Source of the DNA: Promethearchaeota archaeon
Lineage (GTDB): Archaea > Asgardarchaeota > Lokiarchaeia > Sigynarchaeales > SOKP01
Direction of reading: 5' to 3'
NCBI GenBank assembly: GCA_014730295.1
Contig: WJIN01000301.1
Location: forward strand, 1 to 64,000
Length of the DNA: 64,000 nucleotides
Shown here: in pieces, positions 3,589-58,076 of the stretch
Position numbering within the stretch: the stretch's first letter is position 1
Layout of the letters: each line of letters begins with the position of its first letter
The notes under the pieces: generated by a model
The model's database searches: none
What the model saw: the letters and a program-made list of their open reading frames with translations, nothing else
What the model was told of the DNA's origin: nothing
Position numbers and translations under genes: made by a program

Positions 3589-4197
3589 ATGATTGAATGG
3601 ATTAATTTTATATCATTATTCGTAAGTATTGTTCTTTTTTGTTATCTATACACCATTAGTCTCCAACCTAAGAAACGAAGCAAAAAACGCGGAGAAAAAG
3701 CGTGGAAAGAATGTGCAATCTTCAGAAGTGTTGCGGGCTTATTTGAATTTGTAATTACTGCGAATGTAATCTTATGGATATGGTTTCCGATCCCGCAATT
3801 AAATTTCTTAATATCTCAAAATTGGTGGATTGTCATCATCATCGGATTAGCCATATCTGTTCCGGGAATAATAGTAATGGTCAAAGGGATGGTGGATGCG
3901 GGTTCTGAAACCGCAAAACCTTCTGAAGAAACCGAAATGTATAAGGGCGTTTATAGATATATTAGACACCCTCAATCTCTTGGAGAGTTTCCTATATTCG
4001 TAGCCCTTGGATTTTTTATAAATTCTTGGACTATTGTAATAATTATGAGTCTTTTTATTATCATCTATGTTCCAATTATGATTCATTATGAAGAAAAAGA
4101 TTTGATTCGGCGTTTTGGCGAAAAATATAGAGAATATCAGAAAAATACCGGAGCTCTTTTTCCTAAAATTAGTAGTTTGAGAAGCAACAAAGACTGA
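3589..4197 (+). CDS. Isoprenylcysteine carboxyl methyltransferase-like membrane methyltransferase
   Basis: The 202-residue protein has about five membrane helices and the C-terminal signature of the ICMT/PEMT-like family: YRYIRHPQSLGEF, then two helices and HYEEKDLIRRFGEKYREYQK. In this family the RHPxxxG and EE...FG.xYxxY elements bind SAM at the membrane face. Substrates in prokaryotes are generally unknown and include lipids and isoprenoids. Family membership is clear and the substrate is not. It lies 20 bp after the NTF2-like gene. Confidence 0.8.
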   Translation: MIEWINFISLFVSIVLFCYLYTISLQPKKRSKKRGEKAWKECAIFRSVAGLFEFVITANVILWIWFPIPQLNFLISQNWWIVIIIGLAISVPGIIVMVKGMVDAGSETAKPSEETEMYKGVYRYIRHPQSLGEFPIFVALGFFINSWTIVIIMSLFIIIYVPIMIHYEEKDLIRRFGEKYREYQKNTGALFPKISSLRSNKD

Positions 4198-4252
4198 AAT
4201 CTTCAAAAGACACCGATTAATCGTGCAAGAAATAAAATTTCTCTGTTATTAC

Positions 4253-5263
4253 TTATTTTTTTTCGGTTTTTTGCTGATTTTCTTCATAATGTTTAGAAAA
4301 TTTATAATTCACAAGAATTATCCCCCCAGCAACACATAATAAGGCAAATGGATAGATAAAAATATCAAAATGCTCGCCTAAAAAGAGTGCTGAGAATATA
4401 ACTCCGATTAACGGTACGAGAGTTTGAAAAATTGCAGCTCTACTGGCATCTAATCTTTTCACCCCTTCTAAATAAAAGGTGTAGGCACCAACCGTCGATA
4501 ATAGAGAAAGGTATAAAACACCAATCCAGATTCGAGCAGGAATCATGGTATATTGAACGGGATTAAGAAATTCGGGGCTTATTATCAATGCAATGGGAGT
4601 AGTTATGACAAAACCGAAAATCGAAATCCATGTTATTAACCATAATGAACTGGGTTGAAATGACTTTTCTTCCGCCTTGGTTGTATTCATAAAATAGCGT
4701 GAGACGGTCGTATATGATGCATAAGCAAAAGCGGCCATAAGAATTAAAATATCTCCCAAAATACGGTTTGGAACGTTGAAATTGGGGGAAAATCCTATTA
4801 CCATAATAACTGCACCAAATGCGAGGATTGTACCAATAAGTTTTTTCCATGTAATTTTCTCTGTTTCAAGAAAAATGCCTGAGAGAATAACTACCCACAC
4901 AGCATTTGTAGTTACCAAAATGCTTGCATCACTCGCAGACGTAAATATTTCTCCTATTAAATACCCTATTTGATAAATTGTGACTGAAGAGAATCCCATA
5001 AAAAGTAGGGGTTTCCAGTGTTTCAGAGCAAATTTGATATTTAATGATCCTTCTCTATACTTCAAAAGAACTAGAAAGCATGTAACAGCTAGAGAATAGC
5101 GAAGTACTACGATCATTAATGGAGGAATAGTTTCTCCTCCCACCTCTTCGGAAACCATCCATCTTCCTAAAGGCCACGTACCGCCCCAAATAATGGCGGT
5201 GAAAAGAAGTAAAATATAAGCAGTAAAATTGCTCTTATTCTCATTGCGCGAATCCGAATTCAT
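4253..5263 (-). CDS. EamA-type drug/metabolite transporter (DMT superfamily)
   Basis: The 336-residue protein has ten predicted membrane helices in two repeated five-helix halves. This includes the typical first helix AIIWGGTWPLGRW and the second-half signature ASRAAIFQTLVPLIGVIFSALFLGE. Such carriers export metabolites, often amino acids or nucleobases. Nothing here defines the cargo. The last 20 residues are charged and cytosolic. It converges with the methyltransferase ending at 4197. Confidence 0.85.
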   Translation of the reverse strand: MNSDSRNENKSNFTAYILLLFTAIIWGGTWPLGRWMVSEEVGGETIPPLMIVVLRYSLAVTCFLVLLKYREGSLNIKFALKHWKPLLFMGFSSVTIYQIGYLIGEIFTSASDASILVTTNAVWVVILSGIFLETEKITWKKLIGTILAFGAVIMVIGFSPNFNVPNRILGDILILMAAFAYASYTTVSRYFMNTTKAEEKSFQPSSLWLITWISIFGFVITTPIALIISPEFLNPVQYTMIPARIWIGVLYLSLLSTVGAYTFYLEGVKRLDASRAAIFQTLVPLIGVIFSALFLGEHFDIFIYPFALLCVAGGIILVNYKFSKHYEENQQKTEKK

Positions 5264-5382: not shown

Positions 5383-5979
5383 TTATGATTCAAATTTAAT
5401 TTTATTCAAATAATTCTCTACTTTTTGTTCACAAGACTCACAAAATTTTACGGGCTTTTGATCAGTCTCCCTCAAATGATTTGAAAATCGCATTATACAA
5501 TGATTATCGCAATGTTTTAGTCCAAGTGTGTGTCCTAACTCATGAACTGCTTCCTTTAATGTCCTTAGTCGAAAAATTTTGGGATTCTCATCATGGCCGT
5601 AGAAAGCTTCTCTCAAACGTGTGAGTGAGATGATGGAAACCCCAAATTTCTTGGTCAATATATTGTTAGGAGGTGTCGCGATCCCAAAAACGAAGTTAAG
5701 ACCCCTTGAAAAAATATCCACATCTAGCACACCTAAAGTGCGAAAATATTGCTTATCAGTTGCAAGATCAAAAAGACGCCGTAAAATCTTCGAACCATCG
5801 TACTGTTTTCTCATTCTATTATATTCAGATTCCAATAAGGGCATTCGCTCTTTATTAATTTTGGTAGATAAACCATAATCGAGAAATCTTTTATCTAAAT
5901 CTCTCTTTAGACATTGGATTATCTTATCATTGAGATTTCCTATTTTATGAAGAAATACACTTTTCAATGGTTTATCCAT
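5383..5979 (-). CDS. amzA: Archaemetzincin zinc metalloprotease
   Basis: The catalytic motif is HELGHTLGLKHCDNHCIM. The first two His and the HC pair give the HExxHxxGxxH zinc site plus the first Cys of a second zinc site, and the Met supplies the metzincin Met-turn. A closing CESC pair (FCESCEQ) completes the structural zinc-binding Cys set of archaemetzincins. At 198 residues it is close to family length. The physiological substrate is not known for archaeal members. It is a single gene. Confidence 0.9.
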   Translation of the reverse strand: MDKPLKSVFLHKIGNLNDKIIQCLKRDLDKRFLDYGLSTKINKERMPLLESEYNRMRKQYDGSKILRRLFDLATDKQYFRTLGVLDVDIFSRGLNFVFGIATPPNNILTKKFGVSIISLTRLREAFYGHDENPKIFRLRTLKEAVHELGHTLGLKHCDNHCIMRFSNHLRETDQKPVKFCESCEQKVENYLNKIKFES

Positions 5980-52522: not shown

Positions 52523-52954
52523 TCAAAATGAAATATCCCGCTCTTCTAAAAACGATTTAATTTTCCTTTCAAGTTCGTCCCGCGCTGTTCTAAATTGTTC
52601 AATTCTTTCTTCCTCAGAGCCTTCAAATGCAGCGGGATCTTCAATATTCCAAAATAATCTCGTACTCACACCTGGCAAAGTGGGACATAATTTTTCAGCT
52701 TTTTGACATACAGTAATAACAATCCCGAAATGCTTCTCTCCTAAATATTGATCCAAATTCTTAGAATAATGATCACTAATATCATATCCATTTTCTTCCA
52801 TAACTTTTTTAGTAAGAGGATGGATTTTTTTTATTTCAAAACCCGCACTGAACACGTTAAAATGATCTCCAGCTAGTTTATTCAAAATCGCCTCTGCCAT
52901 CTGACTCCTTGCTTGATTATGAGTACATAAAAAAATTATATTCGGTTTTTTCAT
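52523..52954 (-). CDS. arsC: Arsenate-reductase-type low-molecular-weight phosphatase-fold protein (first ArsC)
   Basis: The 143-residue protein has the P-loop FLCTHNQARSQMAEAIL at the N-terminus and the late TVCQKAEKLCPTLPGV with two further Cys, then EDPAAFEGSEEE. This is the thioredoxin-linked ArsC layout in which three Cys relay electrons. It would reduce arsenate to arsenite, which Acr3 exports. A 253 bp gap with two hairpins separates it from the gene at 53208, so it may have its own control. Confidence 0.85.
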   Translation of the reverse strand: MKKPNIIFLCTHNQARSQMAEAILNKLAGDHFNVFSAGFEIKKIHPLTKKVMEENGYDISDHYSKNLDQYLGEKHFGIVITVCQKAEKLCPTLPGVSTRLFWNIEDPAAFEGSEEERIEQFRTARDELERKIKSFLEERDISF

Positions 52955-53207: not shown

Positions 53208-53558
53208 TCAACAACCAGGATCCAGTTGAATATTAATTTCACTCTCTGGTATTAGTGAAAAGTCAGGATTTTCGTGTAGGGGCATAAATTCTCTGTTGGG
53301 ACCATATGCCATTATTCCTATATCATTATAGATTTGGTTTGTTTTCGGATTCCAGATTAATTGTAAATAGTTAGAGATGTATCCCTCGAAAATAGGGAAA
53401 ATAGATTCATCTGGATTATCTTTTAAGTATTTATCGACCTTCGCAAGAGCCTCAGGTAGGGTCCCATCGTCATTTATTTGGACATTAAAGGTTTTTCCTT
53501 GGGATAATCCACTATAGGGCATACTAATACTAATTTCTACGGTTTTAAACTCGATCAC
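53208..53558 (-). CDS. Small protein of unknown function ending in Pro-Gly-Cys
   Basis: The 116-residue protein starts with alternating strands (VEISISMPYSG, FNVQIND), a helix (LPEALAKVDKYL), then a strand QLIWNPKTNQI and a closing IPESEINIQLDPGC. The layout resembles a beta-grasp sulfur-carrier protein such as MoaD, with the final GG replaced by GC. This is a weak guess. It sits 64 bp after the second arsC and shares its operon direction, so it may have a thiol-related function in the arsenic/mercury response. Confidence 0.4.
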   Translation of the reverse strand: MIEFKTVEISISMPYSGLSQGKTFNVQINDDGTLPEALAKVDKYLKDNPDESIFPIFEGYISNYLQLIWNPKTNQIYNDIGIMAYGPNREFMPLHENPDFSLIPESEINIQLDPGC

Positions 53559-53622: not shown

Positions 53623-54039
53623 TTATTTGTTTAGCCAACTTTTAACCTTGCTTTCTATTTGATCTCGTATTTTTCTAAAAAACGCTAAAGATTCCTCCTC
53701 GGATCCTTCGAAAGCTGCAGGGTCTTGGAAAGGCCAATGTAATTCTTCTTGTACACCTAAAATGGTGGGGCACGATTCTTTAGCACTCGAACATACGGTA
53801 ATGAGAATATCAATATCGATTTTTTTCATTAGATCTCGTATATGCTTCGAAGTATGATCGCTCCAATCAAATCCGACCTCTTCAAGTACTTTAATGGTAT
53901 TGGGATGTATTGAGTGTGGCTCTATCCCCGCACTATAGGCATTATAACGATCGCTTCCATATTTATTGAAAAACGCTTCTGCCATTTGACTCCTGCAAGA
54001 ATTCCCCGTACATAAAACAACAATATTTTTTTTATTCAT
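53623..54039 (-). CDS. arsC: Arsenate-reductase-type protein (second ArsC)
   Basis: The 138-residue protein has the P-loop VLCTGNSCRSQMAEAFF, then TVCSSAKESCPTILGV and QDPAAFEGSEEESL, the ArsC layout with its three catalytic Cys. The P-loop reads CTGNSCRS where the first copy reads CTHNQARS, so the two are distinct subtypes. I prefer the ATG at 54039. A longer frame to 54087 would overlap the previous gene by 44 bp. It follows the thiol protein by 4 bp in the hgcAB-like operon. Confidence 0.85.
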   Translation of the reverse strand: MNKKNIVVLCTGNSCRSQMAEAFFNKYGSDRYNAYSAGIEPHSIHPNTIKVLEEVGFDWSDHTSKHIRDLMKKIDIDILITVCSSAKESCPTILGVQEELHWPFQDPAAFEGSEEESLAFFRKIRDQIESKVKSWLNK

Positions 54040-54043
54040 AGTA

Positions 54044-54361
54044 TTAGCTTGCCTCTCTTGATTGTATTTTTGAGATAGTCTTTTCATTAATGAATCCTTT
54101 TTCCTTTAAAATATTAGGCAATCGTTTCTTTAAGAGATGGACTGAGGATATTTTTTCTTCATCATCAATTATAACACATTTTTGAAATAATTTCATGTCG
54201 GCAGCTTTTTCAGAATGTAAAGATTTAGTATCATGGTTGATAAATTTGATATACGGTGTAAGGGCTTCAAAGACCCGATTCATAAAATTTTCCCATTCAC
54301 AAGCGCATACCTGTAGTGGAACATAAATATCTACTTTTAACTTTTTACCCTTTTTTGACAT
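54044..54361 (-). CDS. CxC thiol protein of the hgcAB-like operon
   Basis: The 105-residue protein has KVDIYVPLQVCACEWENFMN with C19 and C21 in a CxC after the first strand, then a helix and VIIDDEEKISSVHLL, a thioredoxin-like order. It is probably a metalloid-binding or redox carrier protein. GAGGG lies before the ATG at 54361, which is preferred to a longer frame at 54451 that overlaps hgcB by 65 bp. The gene is between the HgcB-like and ArsC-like genes, with 4 bp to the latter. Confidence 0.65.
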   Translation of the reverse strand: MSKKGKKLKVDIYVPLQVCACEWENFMNRVFEALTPYIKFINHDTKSLHSEKAADMKLFQKCVIIDDEEKISSVHLLKKRLPNILKEKGFINEKTISKIQSREAS

Positions 54362-54386: not shown

Positions 54387-54716
54387 TTAACAACAAGTTT
54401 CACTATTATTTTTTTCTTTTGAACGTTTTCTAGCGTCCCATAAGCATCCACATCCTCTTTGTTCTTGCATTATTATTGCATGTGTAGGGCAATTCCTTTC
54501 ACATGCACTACACTCGGTACATTTTTCTGGATTAGTAATATTATATGTACCATCATTTTCTTTCTGAGGTAGTCCAAATGGACATATTTCTTCACACAAA
54601 CCACACGCAATACATTTAGAAGGATCTATAGAGATTCTTAAGTTTAAATCCTTCAAAAATCCTTCAATTATATTACTAGAATCACAACAACTTTTATTTT
54701 CTTCTAATTCCGTCAT
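54387..54716 (-). CDS. hgcB: HgcB-like 2[4Fe-4S] ferredoxin with terminal Cys pair
   Basis: The 109-residue protein has two [4Fe-4S] motifs: CIACGLCEEIC (C35, C38, C41, C45) and CTECSACERNC (C66, C69, C72, C76). The CTECSAC element is close to the CMECGAC signature of HgcB. The protein ends SETCC, the vicinal Cys pair that in HgcB transfers the metal. An extra GCGCLW segment (88-93) and an N-terminal CC (10-11) are further thiols. It likely supplies electrons and metal ion to the HgcA-like protein, whose gene is 27 bp upstream. Confidence 0.85.
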   Translation of the reverse strand: MTELEENKSCCDSSNIIEGFLKDLNLRISIDPSKCIACGLCEEICPFGLPQKENDGTYNITNPEKCTECSACERNCPTHAIIMQEQRGCGCLWDARKRSKEKNNSETCC

Positions 54717-54743: not shown

Positions 54744-56408
54744 TTATAATATTATTATACTCAATGCTGTAAGAATTAAAGCAAGACAGAGTAAAATATA
54801 ATTTAGTTTTTGAAATAAGGGATATTCATCTCTAATTTCTCTAGGATTAGTTGACATTGTATAACCGCTAAAAGACATAGTCGTAAAGAATCCGATCCAT
54901 ATAAAAAAGATAAAATTCAAACTAATATATAAAAAGGATTTTTTAAGGATCCAGCTAATTAAACTCAGTGAAAAAGCATTTATAAACCCAAAAAAAATAC
55001 TCTTGATGATAAAATTGCGAGTAAAGTTAGAGATAGGATAAAAAAATATTAATAAAATATTTGGAAAGATGATCCAAAATAAGATATCCCCGATAATCCA
55101 AGTCTTATTAATCATATTAATAATATCTAATCCAAGAAAAGATATGAGTAGAAGCAATAAGGGTAAAAGGAATATTTTTCTCATTAGAAATGTTGTATGA
55201 GTGATACCAGCGCGGGTACGATGAGTTAATGTAAATTTAGCTCTTTTCATCTTTTCGGGCTTCTTTTTCGGATACATGGTAAGATACTCTTCTAAATATT
55301 TTGACCAAACTGGGCCGTATTTGATTTCAAAAGGGAATTTTTCAGACTTCTCGGGTAGTTTGGGTTTTGAAACCCCTCCGGCAGAAAGTTGGGGTAAAAT
55401 AATAGTTTTATTGTCTGTGAGATTTTTTACACCCGTCGCTTCAACAACTTCAAGTAGTTGATCATTACCAAAATCATTTCCTCTCGCAGCACACCAGACA
55501 TTAATACCGTTAGAGTCAATACATAATATCCACGCATCAAAACCTTCTAGATCCCTCATAACTTTAATAAATGTATATGCATAATTAGCGGTTGCAATAA
55601 TCGGAGAGTTTTTATTTGGATTACCTGATTTGTATAATCCGGGTTCGATTGGAACATTATCAACTTGACCTGTCAATAGACATCTCCAAATTTTTAGTTG
55701 CGATGAAATACCTTTTAATTTTCGTTTTTCTGGTTTGTAATAACCGGGTTCATTCTTATCTTCCTCAAATGATTTTTCTAATTCTATAACTTGAATTGAC
55801 CCGTGAGTCCATTTTTTCATATCAGTTATTTTGAAACCGATCGGTTCTAAATAATCTTTAAAATATTTTAAAGTGTTAGTTCTATCAAGTCTTAAACGTC
55901 TCAATTTTTTATTATAAAACCACCTTTTAACCCAGAAAGGTAATTTCCAAACGCCCGACGGGATAAATTCAGCGGCGATTATCAATCGACCATTAGGTTT
56001 TAAAGCATTCCAGGCATTGCGAAGAAAGATTTGTTGTTCCAACGGCCTTAGTTCTGATAACATAAAGGTACTAATGACCAAATCCTGGGAACTTTCTGGA
56101 ACTTTCAAATCTTTAATTGTTCCAATTTGATATAGCAAATCTATATTATCCTTTTCTGGCATATTTTTCAAAGCATAACTAATCATCTGAAAATTTTCAT
56201 CAATAGCTCTGACTTTAACGTCTTTTAATGCAATCTTTGAAGCCAAAATCCCAGTGCCACACCCAACTTCTAATATGGATTGATCGAGTTCAATCTTATC
56301 TAAAATCCAGTTTTGAACTTCAATATTTACTCCTTTTGTGAGATTAGTAAATTTTGAATCGTAACTTGCAGGTTCCTGCTCCAATTTTTGCATGTAAGTA
56401 ACTGCCAT
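54744..56408 (-). CDS. hgcA: Fusion of SAM methyltransferase with HgcA-like corrinoid membrane protein
   Basis: Residues 1-215 form a class I methyltransferase (ILEVGCGTGILAS, motif I at 47-53, then AAWNALKPNG-like post-motif). Residues 235-395 match the HgcA corrinoid domain: DAWILCIDSNGINVWCAARG with C306 as the expected lower cobalt ligand, then LPQLSAGGV and KYGPV. Residues 412-553 hold five membrane helices, as in HgcA. The motif has RG (309-310) in place of the canonical GK. Methyl from SAM could thus pass to the corrinoid within one chain. The substrate may be Hg(II) or an arsenic species. Confidence 0.85.
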   Translation of the reverse strand: MAVTYMQKLEQEPASYDSKFTNLTKGVNIEVQNWILDKIELDQSILEVGCGTGILASKIALKDVKVRAIDENFQMISYALKNMPEKDNIDLLYQIGTIKDLKVPESSQDLVISTFMLSELRPLEQQIFLRNAWNALKPNGRLIIAAEFIPSGVWKLPFWVKRWFYNKKLRRLRLDRTNTLKYFKDYLEPIGFKITDMKKWTHGSIQVIELEKSFEEDKNEPGYYKPEKRKLKGISSQLKIWRCLLTGQVDNVPIEPGLYKSGNPNKNSPIIATANYAYTFIKVMRDLEGFDAWILCIDSNGINVWCAARGNDFGNDQLLEVVEATGVKNLTDNKTIILPQLSAGGVSKPKLPEKSEKFPFEIKYGPVWSKYLEEYLTMYPKKKPEKMKRAKFTLTHRTRAGITHTTFLMRKIFLLPLLLLLISFLGLDIINMINKTWIIGDILFWIIFPNILLIFFYPISNFTRNFIIKSIFFGFINAFSLSLISWILKKSFLYISLNFIFFIWIGFFTTMSFSGYTMSTNPREIRDEYPLFQKLNYILLCLALILTALSIIIL

Positions 56409-56432: not shown

Positions 56433-57497
56433 TTATTTTTTATTTGTCCTCCAAAAACCTTTTTTTCCTAGAAATCTCCCTATATATACAATGGAAAGCA
56501 TTATCGGAATCTCCCAGAAAAGCCCCATCGTTGTCCCAAGGGCAGCTATGCTTCCAACTCCGTATAATCCCACCGCAGTTGCGATTGCGATCTCAAAATG
56601 CGACGATGATCCTATTATTACGCTGATTATCGCTTCCTTATAAGCGAAGCTCAGAAGTTTAGTGACAATGATATTGTATAAGACAACGATAAAAAATCCC
56701 ACTAACAATGGGATAGAGACAATGAGCATTAGTTGTGGATTATTCAATAAAACTTCTCCATTTAAGGAAAACAAAATTATTAAAGTTGTCAATAATGCTA
56801 CGATAGAGATCTTTCCTACAGCGGGCTTATAGGTATTTTCAAACCAACTTTCACCTTTCGATTGTATAAAAAATTTTCGTGAAAGAATCCCAATTAAAAG
56901 TGGAAGTCCAATGAAAACTATTCCAGATATTAGAAGTTGAGTCCAATCAATAGGTATATTCTGTATTCCCGTCAATAAGGACACCATAGGTACATATCCG
57001 ATTATTATTGTAATCGTGTTTATGCTGGTTGTTAATACATTCTGTTCTTGATTTCCGCGTGCCATCCAACCCCAAACCAAGACCATCGCGGTACATGGGG
57101 AACTGGATAGAAGAATTATTGCAACAATAAGCTGCTGATCTACTAAAAATATGTTAGCCATTGCCAATCCGACAAATGGGGCGATTAGCCAATTCGAGAC
57201 TAAAGTAGCGATGACGGGCTTTGGATCTCTTCCTATCTTCTTTAATTCAGAATATTGAAAATTAAGCATCGCGGGATACATCATTAAAAATAGACAGATT
57301 CCTATAGGAATTGAGATCCCACCTATTTTAATTGATTCGATGAAGTCTCCGATTCCTGAAACGACTTGAGAAAGCAAAATCCCGATGATAATGCATAGAG
57401 CAACCCAGGCGGGAAGAAATTTTTCAAAATATCCAAGTTTTTTTTCTCTTTCTTTGAGCTCCTCCTTGATAATCACTGGTTTTCTATTTTCAGACAT
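56433..57497 (-). CDS. acr3: Acr3-type arsenite efflux permease
   Basis: The 354-residue protein has ten predicted membrane helices and the Acr3 signature LLSSSPCTAMVLVWGWMARG with the essential Cys (C135) and SSSHFEIAIATAV with the conserved Glu (E302). It exports As(III) thiolate-free species out of the cell. It is first in the operon that includes the HgcA-like fusion, and its start is divergent from the ArsR gene at 57732. Together they form a complete arsenic response. Confidence 0.9.
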   Translation of the reverse strand: MSENRKPVIIKEELKEREKKLGYFEKFLPAWVALCIIIGILLSQVVSGIGDFIESIKIGGISIPIGICLFLMMYPAMLNFQYSELKKIGRDPKPVIATLVSNWLIAPFVGLAMANIFLVDQQLIVAIILLSSSPCTAMVLVWGWMARGNQEQNVLTTSINTITIIIGYVPMVSLLTGIQNIPIDWTQLLISGIVFIGLPLLIGILSRKFFIQSKGESWFENTYKPAVGKISIVALLTTLIILFSLNGEVLLNNPQLMLIVSIPLLVGFFIVVLYNIIVTKLLSFAYKEAIISVIIGSSSHFEIAIATAVGLYGVGSIAALGTTMGLFWEIPIMLSIVYIGRFLGKKGFWRTNKK

Positions 57498-57731
57498 ATT
57501 TTTTCATTTATAGATTTATATTTTCTGTTTATGAGTTTCATATTAGGTGAATTTATGGTCAGATTTAAACTCATCGATTTGGATTCACTATGATCAATCT
57601 GCAATCTATAATTACCTTAAATTATTATATTAGTATAGAGAATGGATTATTGGTGATAAAAGATAGATAAAAAAAGAAAAACAGAACTGATGAATACTTT
57701 AGAGAGTTGTGTGGATCTGGAGGGTGTTAAT
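57498..57731. promoter_or_regulatory. Divergent arsR-acr3 promoter region
   Basis: The 234 bp between the two start codons must hold both promoters and presumably the ArsR operator. A GTGAAT/ATTCAC pair spaced 36 bases apart (near 57548-57595) and AT-rich TATA-like stretches are visible. There is no compact strong palindrome, so the operator is not located. Confidence 0.4.
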
Positions 57732-58076
57732 ATGGCTCATTATTTTAAAGAACTGAGGGATCTTGGGAAGATTATTAGCCGAAACAAAGAATTTCAAGAG
57801 ATATTAGAGTTCTACAGTACTATGGGCAATGAAGAACGATTAAAAATTATAGAGAGTCTTAAAAGGCAGGATCATTGTGTTTGTGAGTTAGAAGTTATTT
57901 TGGATAAATCTCAACCAACCATTTCTCATCACCTAAGGGAATTGGAAAAAATTGGAATTATACGGGGCTGGAAAAAAGGAAAATTCACTCATTATGACAT
58001 TGTTGATGAGAAAATGGAGTATTATCTAAATTTAATGACATCACATTTTAAAGAGAAGGGAAAATCCTCTAATTAA
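57732..58076 (+). CDS. arsR: ArsR-type metalloregulatory repressor
   Basis: The 114-residue winged helix has STMGNEERLKIIESLKRQDHCVCELEVILDKSQPTISHHLRELEKIGIIRGWKKGKF. The CVC in the recognition-helix region matches the ELCVCDL arsenic-binding box of ArsR. A start at 57732 with GGAGGGTG upstream is preferred to the ATG at 57690, which would add 14 residues without a ribosome-binding site. It should sense As(III), Sb(III) or Hg(II) and derepress the divergent acr3-hgcAB-like operon. Confidence 0.9.
   Translation: MAHYFKELRDLGKIISRNKEFQEILEFYSTMGNEERLKIIESLKRQDHCVCELEVILDKSQPTISHHLRELEKIGIIRGWKKGKFTHYDIVDEKMEYYLNLMTSHFKEKGKSSN

Follow-up and report, generated by a model that had tools for sequence, protein, structure and literature searches.

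The window, that is, the entire analyzed stretch of 64,000 nucleotides, contains a gene array in which a divergent ArsR regulator is followed by an ACR3 permease, a fusion protein that combines a methyltransferase with an HgcA-like domain, a ferredoxin, a CxC thioredoxin-like protein, ArsC, a 116-amino acid protein and a second ArsC:

57690..58076, plus strand: divergent ArsR/SmtB regulator with an HCVCELE motif (NF033788, 71.3 bits against a cut-off of 55)
56433..57497, minus strand: arsenite efflux permease of the ACR3 type, encoded immediately before the fusion on its upstream side (TIGR00832, 276.6 bits against a cut-off of 282.8)
54744..56408, minus strand: fusion ORF of 554 amino acids with an ATG start, stop codon included; CpaM-type methyltransferase, HgcA-like corrinoid domain and five-helix membrane domain
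54387..54716, minus strand: HgcB-like ferredoxin, directly downstream of the fusion, with two 4Fe-4S motifs, GCGC at the position of HgcB Cys73 and a C-terminal CC
54044..54361, minus strand: small CxC protein with a thioredoxin-like model; the likely start is an internal ATG, and the open frame reaches 54451
53623..54087, minus strand: ArsC-like arsenate reductase of the thioredoxin type (TIGR02691, 147.4 bits against a cut-off of 174.3)
53208..53558, minus strand: conserved cluster protein of 116 amino acids with a C-terminal GC and no Pfam match
52523..52954, minus strand: second ArsC-like protein (TIGR02691, 119.8 bits against a cut-off of 174.3)

On the plus strand, frame 1 over 54744–56408 is interrupted by stops throughout. 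In the small CxC protein, for which there is no Pfam match, C49 and C51 are invariant in the 15 aligned sequences (alignment A3), and the Foldseek matches of its model are mostly to thioredoxin-fold proteins, at weak significance (best E 0.013). A preliminary description of this locus concentrated on the fusion and overlooked both the HgcB-type ferredoxin and the ars neighbors, and its interpretation is supported in part by the results below.

Domain architecture of the fusion protein

The fusion protein consists of three parts, and the second of these harbors a short diagnostic motif:

55764..56408, minus strand: methyltransferase domain, residues 1–215, with LEVGCGTG at 46–53 and the acidic residue D70
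55224..55703, minus strand: predicted corrinoid-binding domain, residues 236–395, borders approximate
55479..55502, minus strand: cap-helix motif NVWCAARG, residues 303–310, with C306 at the position of HgcA Cys93
54750..55229, minus strand: membrane domain, residues 394–553, five helices according to the secondary structure of the AlphaFold2 model

The N-terminal part is a class I SAM methyltransferase with a Rossmann-type fold and a GxGxG motif, which is matched by Pfam Methyltransf_25 at residues 45–140 and by the NCBIfam model CpaM (NF043040) at residues 4–211, and the structural rows of the VIA-align comparison span approximately residues 4–215 of the model. G49, G51 and G53 of the SAM motif as well as D70 are invariant in 44 of the 44 aligned fusions, and the only recurrent cysteine of this domain in alignment A1 is C50, inside the SAM motif. 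The part that follows is matched by Pfam CdhD (242–343), HgcAB_like (250–507) and HgcA (246–549). The predicted counterpart of HgcA Cys93, C306, is a cysteine in all 44 aligned sequences, that of the window included. At the C terminus, the model has five helices (394–429, 437–460, 466–489, 492–514 and 522–553), the same number of membrane helices as in HgcA. The best Foldseek match of the whole model is the HgcAB complex 9a0b (E 1.7e-11), which is itself a computed model; the AlphaFold2 model of the fusion carries no corrinoid, its residues 306–312 have pLDDT below 50, and the cap region is poorly resolved. The domain matches and the model bear out the earlier account of a 554-residue protein with a methyltransferase, NVWCAARG (C306) at 303–310 and five C-terminal helices, which the model places at 394–553.

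Distribution of the fusion

A protein search retrieved 781 relatives of the fusion at E ≤0.001. Among the best 120 of the 781, which were examined, 118 are full-length fusions of 541–578 amino acids that contain both the methyltransferase and the CdhD Pfam domains, at 58–81% identity; all organism names given for these are Asgard, with many rows nameless. The two exceptions are P0025 (358 amino acids, CdhD only) and P0034 (485 amino acids, marked as partial). The proposal of the preliminary description, a SAM-type methyltransferase as an integral part of a membrane corrinoid protein that resembles HgcA, is supported. These full-length proteins come from several sources, which rules out an assembly or frame artefact. 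The nearest relatives suggest that the window itself is of Asgard origin.

In the genome scan, the single-protein query gave no matches, and the query with alignment A1 gave at least 586 matching stretches, the best 80 of which were kept and correspond to 79 loci. A match at E ≤1e-60 is present in 91 of the 227 genomes of the phylum, and, by the coordinates of the loci that were read, at least 58 of the 227 Asgard genomes encode the fusion. The loci read among these genomes include 47 of the Lokiarchaeal type (Loki-type, our own label for one clade; 46 genomes), seven Thorarchaeal and five of the Hod-/Heimdall-type; at the Thorarchaeal locus L032, the contig end cuts the fusion. The fusion is also found in proteins named after two Lokiarchaea that are known in culture, Promethearchaeum syntrophicum (P0215, named Prometheoarchaeum syntrophicum, 545 amino acids, motif NVWCGARGD) and Lokiarchaeum ossiferum (P0245, 587 amino acids, motif NVWCAARGD). 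In nr, P0215 bears the name of the acetyl-CoA decarbonylase/synthase gamma subunit (CODH/ACS), which looks like a misannotation.

In Asgard archaea, Chloroflexota, Bacteroidota and other groups, the CpaM-type domain is either fused to the HgcA-like protein or encoded by a neighboring gene. Single proteins that combine CpaM, the HgcA-like domain and a ferredoxin are encoded at L031:585-2357, L040:1409-3298 and the Asgard loci L138, L140 and L141, and the ferredoxin part of these triple fusions lacks the HgcB-type cysteines. Some Asgard genomes, for example, G001, G002, G004 and G119, encode the fusion together with a second CpaM plus HgcAB-like system, either split or triple-fused, and this coexistence within one genome implies that the fusion and the CpaM/HgcAB-like pair likely differ in function. 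In the titles and abstract openings of the top matches from the open-licence literature, we found no description of an HgcA-methyltransferase fusion, of HgcA in Asgard archaea or of CpaM in this sense.

Relationship to HgcA, CpaM and other families

The fusion scores 165.0 bits with the HgcA model NF040863, against a cut-off of 275, and reads NVWCAARG in place of the HgcA motif N(V/I)WCA(A/G/S)GK. The lysine of this motif is present at 36 of the 38 HgcA loci but at none of the 60 Asgard fusion loci, and at none of the 22 Asgard CpaM plus HgcAB-like loci and the 18 bacterial loci. Phylogenetically, the fusion lies outside the HgcA clade, within a clade of Loki-type and Thorarchaeal fusions. By these sequence measures, namely, the score below the cut-off, the motif without lysine and the separate clade, the fusion is not HgcA proper. 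The preliminary description had spoken of the HgcA corrinoid domain in an HgcA-like protein and surmised a divergent subfamily; the divergence is supported.

The best match of the methyltransferase part is CpaM, at 132.8 bits against a cut-off of 180, an alignment that covers positions 3–215 of the 216 in the model. Among the fusions scanned, the bacterial ones at L022, L026 and L031 pass the CpaM cut-off and the Asgard ones at L003, L013, L017 and L019 fail it. With HgcAB_like (NF043039), the fusion scores 171.5 bits against a cut-off of 285, and its ferredoxin is a separate gene rather than a C-terminal domain. The earlier expectation that the C-terminal part would score better with HgcA than with other corrinoid families has thus come out almost even between two models of the HgcA superfamily (171.5 bits for HgcAB_like and 165.0 for HgcA), with the CODH/ACS gamma subunit (NF003195) far behind at 64.4 bits. 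The NCBIfam models may, reportedly, originate from Haft and Gwadz 2023.

Two candidate identities were rejected. A copy of the CODH/ACS gamma subunit (CdhE/AcsC) shares the homologous corrinoid domain (NF003195, Pfam CdhD), but its score is far below those of the two HgcA-superfamily models, NVWC is missing from the six outgroup stretches that were read, and gamma forms the outgroup of the tree. ArsM is likewise a SAM-dependent class I methyltransferase found amid ars genes, but the fusion scores 34 bits with NF008823 against a cut-off of 263, and its domain has the lone recurrent C50, whereas ArsM requires several arsenic-binding cysteines.

The closest known systems are two. With CpaM (NF043040) and HgcAB-like (NF043039), the fusion shares the two building blocks, adjacent or fused, and its corrinoid part scores best with NF043039; it differs in scoring below both cut-offs, in the clade formed by the Loki-type and Thorarchaeal fusions, in the separate ferredoxin with HgcB-type cysteines and in the frequent ars linkage. 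With HgcAB (NF040863, NF040864), it shares the position of the cobalt-ligand cysteine, the five-helix membrane domain and a 2×4Fe-4S partner with the Cys73-type and C-terminal cysteines; it differs in the fused methyltransferase, in the motif, NVWC(A/G)ARG as opposed to NVWCAAGK, and in its place outside the HgcA clade. The fusion would work like HgcA and CpaM yet is classed as neither.

For the eight stand-alone HgcA-like matches examined in Asgard archaea, ordinary hgcA was rejected: all eight have non-lysine motifs. By motif and size, a methyltransferase-like gene adjoins seven of the eight, and at L177 it lies approximately 2.6 kb upstream. The Cys73-type feature occurs in none of the six of these loci with a scored ferredoxin. 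At L180 and L181, the ferredoxin motifs are inside the HgcA-like protein, which at L181 has a CC near the C terminus and no GxGC. The stand-alone methyltransferases beside HgcA-like proteins that the preliminary description mentioned do exist: they correspond to NCBIfam CpaM NF043040, and genes of that size adjoin HgcA-like genes in the Asgard loci.

Phylogeny of the corrinoid domains

In the careful tree, which included 64 of the 133 corrinoid-domain rows, was rooted on CODH/ACS gamma and has incompletely settled bootstrap values, all 16 HgcA rows group together (100/99), the Loki-type and Thorarchaeal fusions make up a clade of their own (97/89), and the CpaM/HgcAB-like set, together with the Chloroflexota fusions and the triple fusions, comprises a third branch (97/81). 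The Hod-/Heimdall-type fusions and L133 join this third branch (89/82), so that the Asgard fusions do not all belong to one clade, and the bacterial L022 stands apart. The quick tree of 133 rows (SH-aLRT only; duplicates as well as L139, L142 and L143 left out) yielded support of 99 for the HgcA clade, 99 for the Loki-type clade and 92 for Loki-type plus Thorarchaeal fusions, and the bacterial L022 and L027 pair together in it. In both trees, L133, which was labeled fus_ARG by its motif, falls outside the Loki-type plus Thorarchaeal clade. The outgroup row L155 overran the end of its gene and was excluded from the careful tree.

The ferredoxin partner

The ferredoxin encoded downstream of the fusion scores 54.7 bits with the HgcB model NF040864, against a cut-off of 99, and possesses the features of HgcB, namely, two 4Fe-4S motifs, a Cys73-type cysteine and C-terminal cysteines. 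According to two studies, full mercury methylation depends on HgcA Cys93 and, in HgcB, on Cys73 together with one or more cysteines at the C terminus (PMC7305189, PMC11588087). Both HgcB-type features are found in 57 of the 57 complete ferredoxins of the Asgard fusions (45 Loki-type, seven Thorarchaeal and five Hod-/Heimdall-type); the 48 Loki-type loci have 46 ferredoxins, that of L165 being truncated where its contig stops, and the sequences of L010 and L122 do not extend to a ferredoxin. The ferredoxin named after Promethearchaeum syntrophicum has a matching tail that ends in GCGDNSCC. In contrast, GxGC, the Cys73-type pattern, is present in none of the 17 ferredoxins scored in the 22 Asgard CpaM plus HgcAB-like loci, and the ferredoxin next to one such system, at L142, ends without a C-terminal cysteine. 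Judging from these motifs, the ferredoxin is the telling part that sets the fusions apart from the known CpaM/HgcAB-like pair.

For 16 of the 18 bacterial fused/CpaM loci the ferredoxin was scored; both features occur at L027 and only the first at L022, and the other 14 lack GxGC. At L027 (Zixibacteriota), the fusion at 3638-5221 has the motif NVWCAAGAG, and the ferredoxin frame that ends at 5478 has GVGC and a CGCG end; this is a case of HgcB-type cysteines outside the Asgard archaea, and both L027 and L022, the latter from Poribacteria, speak against a clean split. At the canonical HgcA loci, GxGC was detected by pattern in 30 of the 36 ferredoxins, and of the other six, five stop at TGA at this position and one reads NVGC. 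The five HgcB-like frames in question (L046, L058, L062, L070 and L077) stop as GVG-TGA at the Cys73 position, with the usual tail continuing beyond, which fits a selenocysteine form; a selenocysteine form of HgcB is listed in a 2026 review.

Linkage to arsenic resistance genes

The neighborhoods were scored by phmmer with the window proteins and three further queries, ArsM (from L015), MarR (from L006) and a Thorarchaeal ArsR (from L020), under our own thresholds and with ACR3 counted within 6 kb. Loci with less than 3 kb upstream were left out, namely, 9 of 48 Loki-type, one of seven Thorarchaeal, one of five Hod-/Heimdall-type, three of 14 Asgard CpaM plus HgcAB-like, six of 18 bacterial and six of 38 HgcA loci. 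With the MarR and Thorarchaeal ArsR queries picked after viewing the Asgard loci, and with these and the window queries favoring those groups, ACR3 was found at 20 of 39 Loki-type loci and an ArsR or cysteine-rich MarR regulator at 34 of 39. The respective counts are 0/6 and 5/6 for the Thorarchaeal loci, 0/4 and 0/4 for the Hod-/Heimdall-type, 1/11 and 0/11 for the Asgard CpaM plus HgcAB-like loci, 0/12 and 0/12 for the bacterial fused loci, and 5/32 and 8/32 for the canonical HgcA loci, 11 of 32 of which have any ars gene or regulator. The Fisher test for ACR3 at Loki-type versus HgcA loci gives 0.0025, a value that is descriptive only, the loci being non-independent. No ars gene or regulator was detected, despite more than 3 kb of upstream sequence, at the four Hod-/Heimdall-type loci, the Loki-type loci L013, L124, L128, L131 and L172, and the Thorarchaeal L017.

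CVCE is present in 34 of the 34 ArsRs of the Loki-type and Thorarchaeal loci (30 by pattern and four Thorarchaeal ones, CVCEF, read by eye) and resembles the arsenite-sensing site of classical ArsR. At four loci (L006:9152-9616, L016:9208-9672, L160:10872-11336 and L113:11449-11928), the upstream gene encodes a protein that by eye is a MarR-like regulator whose cysteines lie close to both termini, and ACR3 is missing; in Loki-type loci lacking ACR3, such a regulator may replace ArsR as the metal(loid) sensor. Between the regulator and the fusion, L158:9716-10285 and L160:9899-10486 encode a protein that, also by eye, is flavodoxin-like, with the cysteine cluster CNACDSCRETGTC, and that could serve as the electron donor for cobalt. 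At L140:5032-6144, an ACR3 gene lies approximately 1.9 kb upstream, the sole case among the 14 Asgard CpaM plus HgcAB-like loci. An ArsM-like gene within 6 kb of the fusion was found at two of the 48 Loki-type loci: that of L015 adjoins the fusion and scores 347.3 bits against a cut-off of 263, and that of L113 is ArsM-like by phmmer only.

The link to arsenic suspected in the preliminary description is therefore substantiated as gene linkage in the Loki-type clade (ACR3 at 20 of 39), with As(III) as the substrate a conjecture from that linkage. Canonical hgcAB, too, lies near acr3, arsC and arsR in several methylators, as reported previously (McDaniel 2020, PMC7438021), so that ars linkage does not separate arsenic from mercury, and Hg(II) would be possible as well.

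Proposed function and alternatives

The location of the fusion beside arsenic-defense genes suggests a self-contained enzyme that methylates a toxic metalloid or metal. Specifically, we propose that the fusion is a membrane-bound corrinoid methyltransferase with its own SAM methyl-donor domain that functions as part of an ars-type metalloid-response cluster, a proposal that we consider equally apt to prove right or wrong. The sequences themselves establish the domain make-up, the conserved residues, the order of the genes and the separate clade. In the mechanism that we infer, which comprises corrinoid binding, cobalt methylation by SAM in cis, an acceptor and a direction of transfer, the corrinoid would be held by residues ~236–395 with C306 as the lower ligand of cobalt, and the downstream HgcB-like ferredoxin would reduce the cobalt to Co(I). 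The N-terminal CpaM domain would then bind SAM and methylate Co(I) in cis, and the methyl group would be accepted by a thiophilic metal(loid), with As(III) and Sb(III) as the likeliest candidates, which the GCGC and C-terminal CC of the ferredoxin would deliver. The product would leave or be exported, and ArsC and ACR3 would deal with arsenate and arsenite. In HgcAB, the methyl group comes from SAM via methyl-Co(III) with a cobalt-thiolate ligand, according to one study (PMC11588087). With a SAM methyltransferase in cis, a cobalt-ligand cysteine and the HgcB cysteines, which presumably carry the metal, the most straightforward interpretation is transfer from SAM to cobalt and on to a thiophilic metal(loid), and the gene neighborhood suggests As(III) or Sb(III) as the acceptor.

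Several observations count against this proposal. An ArsM near the fusion (L015, L113) would be superfluous if plain arsenite methylation were what the fusion does, some fusions lie where no ars gene or regulator was detected, and the HgcB-type cysteines extend beyond ars-linked fusions and beyond the Asgard archaea, as seen in the Hod-/Heimdall-type loci and L027. Furthermore, HgcAB takes the methyl group of SAM without a domain of this kind, so that SAM delivery need not require the methyltransferase domain, and it may not be the fused domain that methylates the cobalt. It might instead act outside the normal cycle, either by re-methylating oxidized cobalt or by methylating a corrinoid protein or a small molecule, with the catalytic methyl group coming from elsewhere. 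SAM re-methylates cobalt for reactivation in cobalamin-dependent methionine synthase, which provides an analogy. Nevertheless, the domain type recurs with HgcA-like genes across the groups named above, and this recurrence suggests a core function, so that we view a role outside the cycle as rather unlikely.

The fusion could also be a mercury methylase that, with the HgcB-like ferredoxin, methylates Hg(II), the methyltransferase domain only speeding up SAM delivery and the ars linkage reflecting regulation by thiophilic metals. All the relevant cysteines, at the HgcA Cys93 position, at the HgcB Cys73 position and at the C terminus, are kept, and the ars genes near canonical hgcAB fit this possibility. 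However, the fusion and its ferredoxin score under the HgcA and HgcB cut-offs, the motif lysine is absent, the fusions form their own clade outside that of HgcA, and ACR3 and ArsR/MarR are commoner at the fusion loci than at HgcA loci. In addition, Pyrococcus furiosus and Methanococcoides methylutens, which have fused HgcAB, gave no methylmercury above controls in published experiments (PMC5893877); judging from the NCBIfam name alone, one would expect these two species to have proteins of the HgcAB-like branch. We therefore hold the mercury-methylase reading to be improbable. A still fainter prospect is the reverse direction, in which the corrinoid would serve to take methyl groups off methylated arsenicals or other organometals: ArsC, ACR3 and, at two loci, ArsM would suit the handling of methylated arsenic, but the SAM-binding domain points to donation, and the formation of SAM from methyl-Co is uphill.

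Returning to metalloid methylation from SAM, a bolder version, which we put forward tentatively and with more doubt than confidence, is that the HgcA superfamily has a third branch, encoded by Asgard archaea and, among these, by both cultured Lokiarchaea. This branch would be a one-protein SAM:corrinoid:metalloid methyltransferase that, with its HgcB-type ferredoxin and within ars operons, makes C-As or C-Sb bonds through cobalt chemistry that bears no relation to ArsM.

Implications

The natural fusion of a SAM methyltransferase with an HgcA-like protein constitutes independent genomic support for SAM as the physiological donor in this superfamily, and bears on the non-mercury roles of HgcA-type proteins and on the cellular source of their methyl groups. 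It is also a case where the gene neighborhood suggests a substrate other than mercury, and the fusion clade would have to be set apart in surveys that equate HgcA-like genes with mercury methylation. Since sequences named after Promethearchaeum syntrophicum and Lokiarchaeum ossiferum encode the fusion, its function is testable in living Asgard cultures. If the metalloid reading is true, the chemistry of HgcA-type proteins extends beyond mercury and may have its origin in defense against metalloids.
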